The notes beneath the pieces are model-generated. The model was not told the DNA's origin. It did not search any database and saw only the letters and a list, made by a program, of their open reading frames with translations. Of a DNA stretch of 64,000 nucleotides, positions 24,230 through 47,721 are shown piece after piece (positions within the stretch are counted from its first letter, which is position 1; every line of letters begins with the position of its first letter). Source of the stretch: Haladaptatus sp. DJG-WS-42 (lineage in GTDB: Archaea; Halobacteriota; Halobacteria; Halobacteriales; Halococcaceae); the NCBI RefSeq assembly GCF_037198285.1, contig NZ_CP147243.1, positions 806,001 to 870,000 of the forward strand. Direction: 5' to 3'. The position numbers and the translations under genes were made by a program.

Positions 24230-25114
24230 TCAGACGCTCGACAATCGCGTCGTCCAGAAATCGTGGAAGGCTTCTGCAAGTGCCGCCTCGGGGTCGCCTG
24301 TGGCGTCGACCGTCCGCGTGGCGTCCGCGTGAGGTTTGAATTTGCCGAGCACCGTGCGCTCGCCAACGACAATAAGTCGGTCTGCGTCGGTCTGTTCGAC
24401 CGCCGCAAGACAGCGTTCGACGTGGTCTGCGATTTGGCCCTCGCGGATGCGCTCGAAGCGCCCTTGCGAGAAGCCACCTTTCGAGTGGTTGCTTTTTACG
24501 TCTGTCTCGAAGCCGGTGAGCGAGACGCGCTCGCGGCCCTCGTATTCGCCAAGCGCGAACAGGTCAGACCGGACGAGCGCGAAGGCGAAGCTCCCCGTCG
24601 GCTCGAACCACGCGCGGTCAAACGCGAAGTGGTCGTCCCACGTCACGTGTGCGTCGGGCAAGAGCGGCGGTTCGAGAACGACGCTCACGAGGCCCGCATC
24701 ATCGCCAAAAAAGACGCACGGAGCGGCCCGCGAGACGAGCGCGGCGCGGTCGCCGAGCAGGTCGGTGACTTCCGCGGGGAGCGAGTCTTCGACCACCGCA
24801 GACAGCGCGCCCTCCGGCTCGGTTTCCACTGATTCGAGCCGGGTGAGCACCTCGGAGAGTCGGTCGCCCCGGAGCCGTTCCTCGTGGCGAACCGAGAGCG
24901 ACTGCTCGGTTTCTGGCTTGTCGAGCTTGCCTTCGAGGCCCGCAATCTGGTCTTCGAGGCGATTGACGCGCTCTTCTGCCTGCTGGCGGGCGTGGGCGGC
25001 GTCGGCGCGGCGCTCCTGTTCGGCCGAAAGCTGGCGTTCGAGGTGACGGGTTTCCGATTCGAGCTCCTCGATGCGTTCCTTTAGCTCCGTGCGGCCGAGC
25101 AGGTCGTCAAACAT
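24230..25114 (-). CDS. Vms1/VLRF1-type peptidyl-tRNA hydrolase (aeRF1-fold)
   Basis: A 294-residue protein. An N-terminal coiled coil (residues about 5-70, MFDDLLGRTELKERIEELES) precedes an eRF1-like domain with NHSKGGFSQGRFERIREGQI (about residues 210-229), matching the VLRF1/Vms1 catalytic loop in the GGQ position. Such proteins release nascent chains from stalled ribosomes. The loop reads GGF-S-QGRF rather than GGQ-S, so Gln is offset. It lies 58 bp upstream of dgcN on the same strand and is probably co-transcribed, though the functional link is unclear. Confidence 0.8.
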   Translation of the reverse strand: MFDDLLGRTELKERIEELESETRHLERQLSAEQERRADAAHARQQAEERVNRLEDQIAGLEGKLDKPETEQSLSVRHEERLRGDRLSEVLTRLESVETEPEGALSAVVEDSLPAEVTDLLGDRAALVSRAAPCVFFGDDAGLVSVVLEPPLLPDAHVTWDDHFAFDRAWFEPTGSFAFALVRSDLFALGEYEGRERVSLTGFETDVKSNHSKGGFSQGRFERIREGQIADHVERCLAAVEQTDADRLIVVGERTVLGKFKPHADATRTVDATGDPEAALAEAFHDFWTTRLSSV

Positions 25115-26264: not shown

Positions 26265-27077
26265 CTAGCGGCTCTGTAATCGCTCCGTAGAAATCAGTCG
26301 ACGGGCGATGACCACGAGGCCATTGCCCAATCCGCTTGCGAAAACTGCGTGTTCTTCGGTCAGTTCGGTATCGTCCTTGCCATCCGATTGGATGGAACTC
26401 ACAAAGAGGTTCTCGCGGTCGGTGAGCAGCAGACGGCCAACCGCCGCTTCATCGGCCAGTTACGGCCCAACAAGCCAATCCAGCCCGGATTCGAACACCT
26501 CAATCGCGGTCAACTCGTGTTGGAGTGCTTCTATCACTGTCGGAGAAAATCCCCCAACTGTGACGGCGACGCCGCGGTCTTTCGCCGCCTTGAGCCGTTC
26601 GAATAACGCTTCTGTGAGCATCGCTTCGTCAGCGACGACGAGGATGAGTTCCTTTTTTGCCGTATCAATCAGCTCGATGGTGCGCGATTCGATAGCCCGA
26701 GGGTTTGAAAGCGTCCACACCTCCTGCATCAGCTCGTCGTCTGTGGTTTCTGTGAGTGGGTTGAGGTTGTTGAGCGTCGTTTGAAGGCTTTCAATCCGCT
26801 CAAGATACTGCATGCGAAGCGTTTCTGCGGCCTCAGAAACGGAAACAGCACGAAACCGACGGGGACTGCCATGTTGAACGGTGACGAGTCCTTCTGCCTC
26901 CAACACCCGAATGGCGTCATACACCCGCGTTCGAGGGATGTCCGCGAGTTCGCTTATTTCCTTTGCAGTTCCAGTCGGTAACTGTGTGAGTGCGACAAAA
27001 CAGCGTGCTTCGTACTCTTTCAGTCCGAGCTGTTGTAACAGGTCAACGGCATGTTCTGGTTTCGTGCTTTCAATCAT
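26265..27077 (-). pseudogene. TrmB-family transcriptional regulator interrupted by an in-frame TAA
   Basis: From ATG 27077 to TAG 26265 the frame spans 271 codons but contains one internal TAA at 26460-26462, after residue 205. Upstream is the TrmB HTH (residues about 12-75, LGLKEYEARCFVALTQLPTG, IPRTRVYDAIRVLEAEGLV) and the phospholipase D-like middle. Downstream, in the same frame, the typical C-terminus continues for 64 codons: LADEAAVGRLLLTDRENLFV ... VFASGLGNGLVVIARRLIST. Full length matches TrmB proteins, so this is a single nonsense change or sequence error. The truncated product may still bind DNA. Confidence 0.8.
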
Positions 27078-27114
27078 GGGCCCAACCATTGTCTGACCCG
27101 TGCGGCCAGACAGC

Positions 27115-27126: not shown

Positions 27127-27653
27127 TAGTCCCACTGCAATAAGAAGGGAGAATATTGGAACGAGTTTGTCATGTGGTCTGAAATAGCTAAAAGATGCTG
27201 GCGAGGTGTTGTCAAGAAAGCATCTTGAGAATAATACCGGCAAAAAGATGTTTAACTGCCAGGTTGCGCAGAACTTTCACCCACATAATCACACAACGTT
27301 CTTTACCTCAGGTAGAGAATGGTATACTGGTGCGTGACTGGGAGGCCCAACCCCCAGTCATGGTACCAATTCTCAGAAACCCCCCCTTCCCCACAGTTTT
27401 TCCGTTTCGCAATGTGTGCAGACAGCCACCACGAGTTTCACTAAATTGCGTAAAATCCGGAACTGGGTGAAACGAAACCTTACCCACGTTGCCGCCAAAC
27501 TCACTGTTGCGTACTTCGTCACAGGTGCGCATCTTCGACAACTTGTCGAGACGGGGTATCCGCTTCGTGGGGACGGGGCCATTCCGCTGAGTCAAGCGTG
27601 CTATCTCGCTCCAGAGCGAAGCCGTGTAGCTCAGTGGAACTGTTCGGCCGTCA
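27127..27653. other. Long intergenic region with no convincing gene
   Basis: Between the TrmB-like and ArsR-type genes about 530 bp are poorer in GC than the surrounding genes. Short frames of 81-91 codons exist on both strands but have no recognisable domains and lack the acidic composition of haloarchaeal proteins. A second TACCTCAGGTAG copy (27306-27317) and a C-run near 27381-27393 are the only patterns I see. Confidence 0.5.
27306..27317. repeat. Copy 2 of the 12-bp near-palindrome (TACCTCAGGTAG)
   Basis: It matches 11 of 12 bases with the copy at 27115 and is itself an almost perfect palindrome, in the same intergenic region between two regulator genes. Confidence 0.35.
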
Positions 27654-45174: not shown

Positions 45175-45388
45175 TCCCCGGCAGAGTGGGCTCAGTCGTT
45201 TGATTGCGACTCTATAGCACACCCGGCTGAAACACCTATATAAATATTACGACCATATGGTGTTTAACCACCCCCAAAACACGTTTAGCGCAGGTTGTAA
45301 ACGCTCTAAAGACCTATGGAACAGTCGTTTGCCCAATTCGACCCCCATATGGCGAAAACCGTCTGAAACAAGGTGCAACAGATTGGGG

Positions 45389-45397
45389 TTTTTATGC
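45389..45397 (+). promoter_or_regulatory. TATA box for the 45424 zinc-ribbon gene
   Basis: TTTTTATGC lies 27-35 bp before the ATG at 45424, fitting a leaderless transcript. Confidence 0.55.
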
Positions 45398-45423
45398 TCT
45401 CCCCGGTGCCAGTAGCTGATACG

Positions 45424-45624
45424 ATGTCAACCCAGAACCGAACCCCAGGCGACATGACCGAAGATTGCAACGCGTGCGGTCGTGACACGCCCCACAAAGT
45501 CGCCCTGAAGCTCCTCACGGAGAGCGACAAACCGGAAAACGCAAAATTCTCGCGCGAGCCCTACCGCGTGAGCACGTGCATGAACTGTGGTCACGAGACC
45601 ACGCTTCGAATGAACAACGCGTAA
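45424..45624 (+). CDS. 66-residue zinc-ribbon protein (DUF7835-like)
   Basis: A 66-residue protein with two zinc knuckles: CNACGRDTPH (about residues 15-24) and CMNCGHET (about 52-59). It is strongly conserved in haloarchaea (I recall DUF7835). The Met at 45424 is preferred over 45373 because it follows a TATA box at the right distance and gives MSTQNRTPGDMTEDC. The function is unknown; a nucleic-acid or protein-binding role is likely for this fold. Confidence 0.8.
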   Translation: MSTQNRTPGDMTEDCNACGRDTPHKVALKLLTESDKPENAKFSREPYRVSTCMNCGHETTLRMNNA

Positions 45625-46863: not shown

Positions 46864-47721
46864 CTACTCGCCCGCCACGCTCACCTGCATCGCGTCTGTG
46901 TTGTACGCGCTTCCGACGGAACCGTCTGCGCTGAGAACGATGACACCGGCTTCAGAGCTAGTGCGGTCTTCGAGTTCTTCGATGGCCTGATCTGCGGCAT
47001 TCTGCGCCGTCTCACCGGCTTCGAGCAAATCGACGGCGCGCCGAGAGAGGGTGACCTTCGCAATGTCTTCGCCCGCGCCCGTCGCGCTCGCACCGCCCGC
47101 GGGCGTGGCGTAGAAGCCGCTGCCAATCTGGGGGACGTCGCCGACCCGTCCAGCGAGTGCAAGCCAGCGGCCACCAGTCGAGGTTGCCGCGGCCACACGA
47201 CCGTCCGCAACGGCGACCGCGCCCACGGTGTCGTGTCCACCGAATTTCTCATGTATCCAGTCGAGTTGTCCCCGAACGTCCGTGTTCTCAGGGACGTGTT
47301 CGAGCTCGGCCCACTGCTCGCGAGTCTCGTCTGTCAGGAGGTCTCCGCGCGTCTCGATACCGAAGGCGTCCGCGAGGTCGACGGCGTGGACGCCCGAGAC
47401 GAGGACATGTGGGGTCTCTTCCATCACGACACGGGCCACGTCGATGGCGTGACAGACGCCGGGCATGGCCGCTGCGGCCCCCGCTTCATACTCATCGGTC
47501 ATGATACCCGCGTCCGTCCGGACGATGCCGTCCGACTGGATGGCTCCGCCGACACCAGCATTGAATCGAGGCGACGATTCGAGGACGTGGACGGCGGCGA
47601 CGACGGCGGAAACGGGGTCTGTTTCTGCCGCGCCTGTGGTCGCTGCTTCGTCGAGAATTTGTTGGCGACGGTCGGGTTCGTCGGGCTGACCGCCAGCACC
47701 ACCATGGACAACAATTCGCAT
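46864..47721 (-). CDS. Isoaspartyl peptidase / type III L-asparaginase (Ntn hydrolase)
   Basis: A 285-residue Ntn-hydrolase starting MRIVVHGGAGGQPDEPD. The autocleavage site and nucleophile Thr are in HDTVGAVAVAD (about residues 161-171), giving alpha and beta chains. Downstream contacts are in GRVGDVPQIGSGFYA and ATGAGEDIAKVTLS. It hydrolyses isoaspartyl dipeptides or asparagine. The start at 47721 gives the family N-terminus. It diverges from icd. Confidence 0.92.
   Translation of the reverse strand: MRIVVHGGAGGQPDEPDRRQQILDEAATTGAAETDPVSAVVAAVHVLESSPRFNAGVGGAIQSDGIVRTDAGIMTDEYEAGAAAAMPGVCHAIDVARVVMEETPHVLVSGVHAVDLADAFGIETRGDLLTDETREQWAELEHVPENTDVRGQLDWIHEKFGGHDTVGAVAVADGRVAAATSTGGRWLALAGRVGDVPQIGSGFYATPAGGASATGAGEDIAKVTLSRRAVDLLEAGETAQNAADQAIEELEDRTSSEAGVIVLSADGSVGSAYNTDAMQVSVAGE

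Follow-up and report, generated by a model that had tools for sequence, protein, structure and literature searches.

A Haladaptatus-type haloarchaeon carries on the minus strand of the window (the whole 64,000-nucleotide stretch of DNA that was analysed) what is probably a recent nonsense allele, or young pseudogene, of an accessory transcription factor of the TrmB family. Translation confirmed the initial annotation of a frame that is open for 205 codons from the ATG at 27077, stops at an in-frame TAA and continues for 64 further codons to the original end of the gene (Table 1). As had also been claimed, nothing else is disturbed: translation and alignment revealed a start codon and no frameshift. 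Another in-frame ATG is located at 27089, 4 codons further upstream, and is common to the intact ortholog of Haladaptatus sp. QDMS2 (MVGPM); hence, the part ahead of the stop may measure 209 codons instead of 205.

Table 1. Parts of the stop-interrupted regulator gene, in window coordinates (G001 and G002, the two other Haladaptatus genomes compared).
Feature	Position	Strand	Description
Upstream stretch TCTTATTGCAGT	27134..27145	-	Possible promoter part; by alignment also in G002, about as far ahead of the start
Translated part	26463..27077	-	205 codons: winged helix, linker helix, beginning of the predicted PLD-like domain; 209 codons from ATG 27089
TrmB-type winged-helix DNA-binding domain	26838..27038	-	PF01978, 73.2 bits; residues 18-84 of the 209-codon reading
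Premature TAA	26460..26462	-	CAC in G002, CAT in G001
Lost C-terminus	26268..26459	-	64 codons: three strands and last helix of the predicted PLD-like domain
TAG, original end of the gene	26265..26267	-	Located by translation

Our collection represents the genus by three genomes, the window's own, G001 and G002 (strain QDMS2). G002 was assigned to this strain by its second contig, a plasmid, of which 6,000 bases matched at 100%; G001 gave only a 75.5% match covering 7% of the query in the same comparison. G002 carries a syntenic and intact ortholog, the counterpart of the disrupted frame of the window. The two proteins are 76% identical before the stop (204 residues) and 77% identical after it (60 residues), and identity reaches 95% across the 55 compared codons of the HTH part. 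The tail is also 74% identical to its G001 homologue across 54 residues and keeps the C-terminal residues found invariant across 28 aligned full-length homologues, which bears out the earlier proposal that the 64 codons beyond the stop are the true C-terminus of the protein. Furthermore, comparison with the sister genomes, which had been suggested as a check, revealed a sense codon at the TAA site in both of them.

Full-length homologues are widespread. The relatives search returned a match of any closeness in 53 of 60 genomes, and the family search in 17 of 18. Of 29 loci fetched in the relatives search, each from a different other genome, 27 have a full-length open frame; only G001 and the draft genome G024 deviate. 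The G024 homologue (L052 / L033) contains an early TAG and scrambled frames, which may be a real lesion or a draft error. Of 283 stretches in named genomes that encode a relative, we retained the 80 best; each has an open frame of 257-291 codons, none ends at the stop site of the window, and a recognisable C-terminus is present in 79 (ends judged by eye). The one with a scrambled end, L059 from a draft Halorubrum, reflects either a real lesion or a draft error.

We observed that G001, the closer relative of the window with 91-98% protein identity in nine neighbouring genes, also bears a broken copy. Homology of the G001 ortholog begins at about residue 36, the upstream region and some 35 codons being gone, and its C-terminus is split by a segment of about 1.5 kb that encodes a TnpB-type protein (L036 6715-8067; G001:C1:1064717-1066066). 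According to our own reading of the junctions, the old regulator frame resumes across both sides of this segment. The inserted protein comprises 450 residues and matches PF07282 with 81 bits (cut-off 26.3), PF01385 scoring under its cut-off. Close relatives of this protein are found at another place in G001 (93% identity) and also in G002 (91%), so that, judging by sequence, the element is repeated within the genus. As the TAA site reads CAC in G002 and CAT in G001, the stop is unshared and the lesions of the window and of G001 are independent. A broken copy is thus found in two of the three genomes of the genus, by different routes.

Divergence was similarly constrained on both sides of the stop. 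In comparison with G002, dN/dS was 0.14 before the stop (204 codons) and 0.21 after it (64 codons), and the effector half ahead of the stop gave 0.21 (114 codons), like the post-stop part. In comparison with G001, the values were 0.20 (169 codons) and 0.18 (56 codons), respectively. The gene appears to have been under constraint through most of its divergence, and the lesion seems too young for visible decay, an order of events that we infer. Because constraint is alike on both sides of the stop, the lesions look young; together with the sense codon in both sister genomes, this agrees with the initial description of the change as recent. Neutral decay of the G001 copy was rejected, as a raised dN/dS was expected but 0.13-0.20 was found.

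Of 62 window segments, the gene is the one that diverges most from G001 at synonymous sites (pS 0.597, with a median of 0.304 and the next segment at 0.517), and the stretch of high pS (26418-26972) is flanked by sequence with 91-98% protein identity. GC3 of the gene is 0.59 versus 0.72-0.82 in eight neighbours, and the correlation of GC3 with pS across segments is -0.04 for G001 and -0.47 for G002. Loss alone fails to account for the high synonymous divergence from G001, for which older alleles, allelic replacement or weaker codon bias are possible explanations. Against G002, the gene is no clear outlier, as pS is 0.616 for its coding part and 0.615-0.623 for four other segments; the maximum row (0.636) takes in non-coding codons upstream of the start.

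Assignment of the gene to the TrmB family was borne out for the DNA-binding domain. The pre-stop part matches the TrmB winged helix (PF01978) with 73.2 bits, far above the gathering cut-off of 25.6. PF11495 scored 27.5 bits in this part (cut-off 22.2) and spans only the first 58 of 233 positions; in the intact relatives L006 and L062, it covers the first 54-58 of 233 positions and stays below the cut-off in both. The NCBIfam equivalogs TrmB, TrmBL1 and TrmBL2 all scored far under their cut-offs in the window and in these two relatives. For the sugar-sensing TrmB profiles NF040851 and NF047392, the window reached 56.0 and 61.4 bits, respectively (cut-offs 600 and 500), and the intact relatives 51-65 bits. 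For TrmBL2 (NF041141, cut-off 530), the window part scored 54.5 bits and the relatives 46.9 and 48.1. The 64-codon tail by itself matched nothing in Pfam or NCBIfam.

An AlphaFold2 model of the full-length homologue L062 (m07d80e2b78c0, 42-sequence alignment, mean pLDDT 84.4, pTM 0.67) predicts a PLD-like domain besides a winged helix and a long helix. A second look at the matches of Foldseek placed TrmBL2, NucT, Nuc and the TrmB effector domain in the top rows. The model aligned with TrmBL2 (5BQT) over 242 residues with Z 15.7 and an rmsd of 20.4 over both domains, because the two domains sit in a different relative placement. It also matched the PLD-family nucleases NucT (6EHI; Z 13.5, rmsd 2.7, 131 residues) and Nuc (1BYR; Z 13.3, rmsd 2.9, 133 residues), as well as the TrmB effector domain (2F5T; Z 13.1, rmsd 2.7, 126 residues). 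A profile search against solved structures returned four hits, to TrmBL2 and TrmB, with TrmBL2 as the best. The C-terminal domain of L062, the one protein modelled, is therefore predicted to have a PLD-like fold, which implies no catalytic function.

Placed by alignment, the TAA maps to about residue 206 of the L062 model. Strands 212-219, 223-229 and 241-246 and helix 250-260 of the model would be lost. Of the invariant columns, 7 fall in the lost 64 residues and 8 in the preceding 114 when 28 full-length proteins are aligned, versus 10 and 8, respectively, when 42 proteins are aligned. The truncated protein keeps its winged helix, as first annotated, but the statement that it also keeps most of the effector domain was generous: about 89 of some 150 residues stay, and three of the seven strands are missing along with the final helix.

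These observations suggest the following course. The ancestral protein of about 270 residues would have had a winged helix at its N-terminus and, joined to it by a long linker helix, a PLD-like domain at its C-terminus that presumably senses or forms dimers, as in TrmBL2 and TrmB. Following codon 205, the TAA would terminate translation within the PLD-like domain. With three of the seven strands and the final helix gone, misfolding or degradation of the short product is most likely, and the regulator would thereby be lost. The same gene is broken otherwise in G001, which also points to loss of the regulator. It appears dispensable in the genus, with G001 having broken its copy independently, through a 5' deletion plus insertion of a TnpB element, and G002 retaining an intact one. 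A full-length paralogue, 40% identical, elsewhere in the window's genome (L154 7205-8026; G000:C1:1659264-1659980) makes redundancy plausible.

Loss of function is opposed by the state of the gene in the one strain of the window: no further lesion is present, and the part ahead of the stop has a low dN/dS; the short form may thus still function. It could bind DNA by its winged helix, be deaf to the signal and act as the constitutive regulator that was initially envisaged. We consider this unlikely, though the view keeps some weight, as TrmB proteins with a single domain do work. Haloferax volcanii OxsR, a natural single-domain protein of 123 aa, is a haloarchaeal member of the TrmB family that functions with its winged helix, according to the portion of PMC9426492 available to us. 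The winged helix and linker helix of the window copy are likewise intact and conserved, and the upstream stretch is shared with G002. However, the stop falls at no clean domain boundary and leaves a partial, otherwise compact PLD-like domain deprived of conserved residues, none of the best 80 of 283 homologues ends at this site, and G001 lost its promoter region and start entirely. It is also doubtful that two sister lineages inactivated the same regulator since an altered regulon pays in their habitat, with a short form that may bind DNA and be dominant and signal-blind.

An error of base calling or assembly within an intact gene is improbable as the source of the TAA, even though it is a single lesion within an otherwise perfect frame. 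The genome was assembled as one 2.78-Mb contig, the context of the stop (GGGCCGTAACTGGCC) contains no homopolymer, and independent breakage in G001 makes a real lesion more likely a priori. Furthermore, the TAA was the sole clear in-frame nonsense codon with constraint on both sides in the gene-like segments compared, 63 with G001 and 64 with G002. The screen, in which one stop was tested per row and stops near match ends were uncounted, flagged 13 rows with internal stops. Two of these are the TAA itself, and nine look non-coding before the stop, with a pN/pS of 0.6 or more on that side, so that the stop precedes the gene start there. Another stop, at 47687, falls within a diverged tail, 15 codons short of where the G002 frame ends. 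The last row has a TGA at 45417 that fell into none of these classes; the 21 codons after this TGA are identical to G001, and the surrounding stretch (45231-45482) shows very low divergence from G001 (pS 0.09) and a GC3 of 0.45, unlike the rest of the window. The screen speaks against poor quality throughout the assembly but leaves room for a single wrong base. Read-through or recoding of the stop, yielding the full protein, is extremely improbable. The post-stop frame is open and constrained, as it would be in that case, but the sisters carry CAC or CAT and none of the 80 kept homologues (best 80 of 283) has a stop at this site; the absence of the stop in relatives indicates that this is no conserved recoding site. 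TAA differs from the selenocysteine and pyrrolysine codons, and Rfam returned no family at the gathering threshold over the window, 45231-45482 included.

The preferred reading, a young nonsense allele, most likely places the gene in an already known category, the ordinary loss of a dispensable regulator. Ordinary young pseudogenes arise by nonsense mutation or IS insertion, like the single stop here and the TnpB-type element with 5' loss in G001; the sole oddity is that two close genomes were hit in the same gene by different routes. Among characterized regulators, TrmBL2 of Pyrococcus and Thermococcus (5BQT, 5BPD) is similar in length (264 aa) and in its architecture of winged helix and C-terminal domain, and ranks first for L062 in the structural comparison as well as in the profile search against solved structures. 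It differs in that identity is only 22-24%, the intact relatives score 47-48 bits against a cut-off of 530, and the window copy is truncated. TrmB (2F5T, 3QPH; Halobacterium VNG1451C) shares the PF01978 winged helix and a related effector fold. However, it is about 340 residues long and includes a sugar-binding part, whereas the full-length relatives here have about 270 residues and align with no more than the first 54-58 of the 233 PF11495 positions; they score 61-65 bits against the cut-off of 500 of the halophile TrmB equivalog. In contrast to OxsR, a natural single domain, the window copy has two domains and is cut within the second.

A nonsense allele of an accessory archaeal regulator has little significance by itself. 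Annotators should not accept a TrmB protein of 205-209 residues at this locus at face value. The intact, the stop-truncated and the 5'-deleted, TnpB-interrupted copies form a natural trio in which an expression comparison could reveal the regulon of this TrmB subfamily, which occurs in many haloarchaea. The regulon is not guessable from synteny, as no neighbour family recurs in most of the 80 loci; the largest groups other than regulators and shadow frames were found in 21-22 loci (by eye). According to the accessible part of PMC10817205, haloarchaea encode on average three TrmB-type regulators with both domains (97 genomes). In the literature text available to us, only engineered strains turned up for pseudogenes of the TrmB family in haloarchaea, and a search under the strain name QDMS2 found nothing on Haladaptatus. 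The regulator of PMC13286277 was discarded as irrelevant to the TrmB comparison, being of the Lrp/AsnC type in the part available.

Two further observations concern other copies of the regulator. The 40% paralogue adjoins an ORF (L154 5853-6860) that resembles a tyrosine integrase by eye, suggesting that regulators of this subfamily may travel with mobile DNA. In the draft G015 (L157, G015:C33), regulator copies are in a tandem-like arrangement, with a single N at the scaffold joins and sequence repeated or skipped around them. A breakpoint common to the G015 members (seeming start at residue 35-37) and G001 was rejected, as the single N at the scaffold joins makes this an assembly matter. Finally, the neighbouring gene at 24230-25108 of the window matches the acVLRF1 release-factor-like family (PF18859, 113 bits), the Pfam name of which refers to actinobacteria and chloroflexi.
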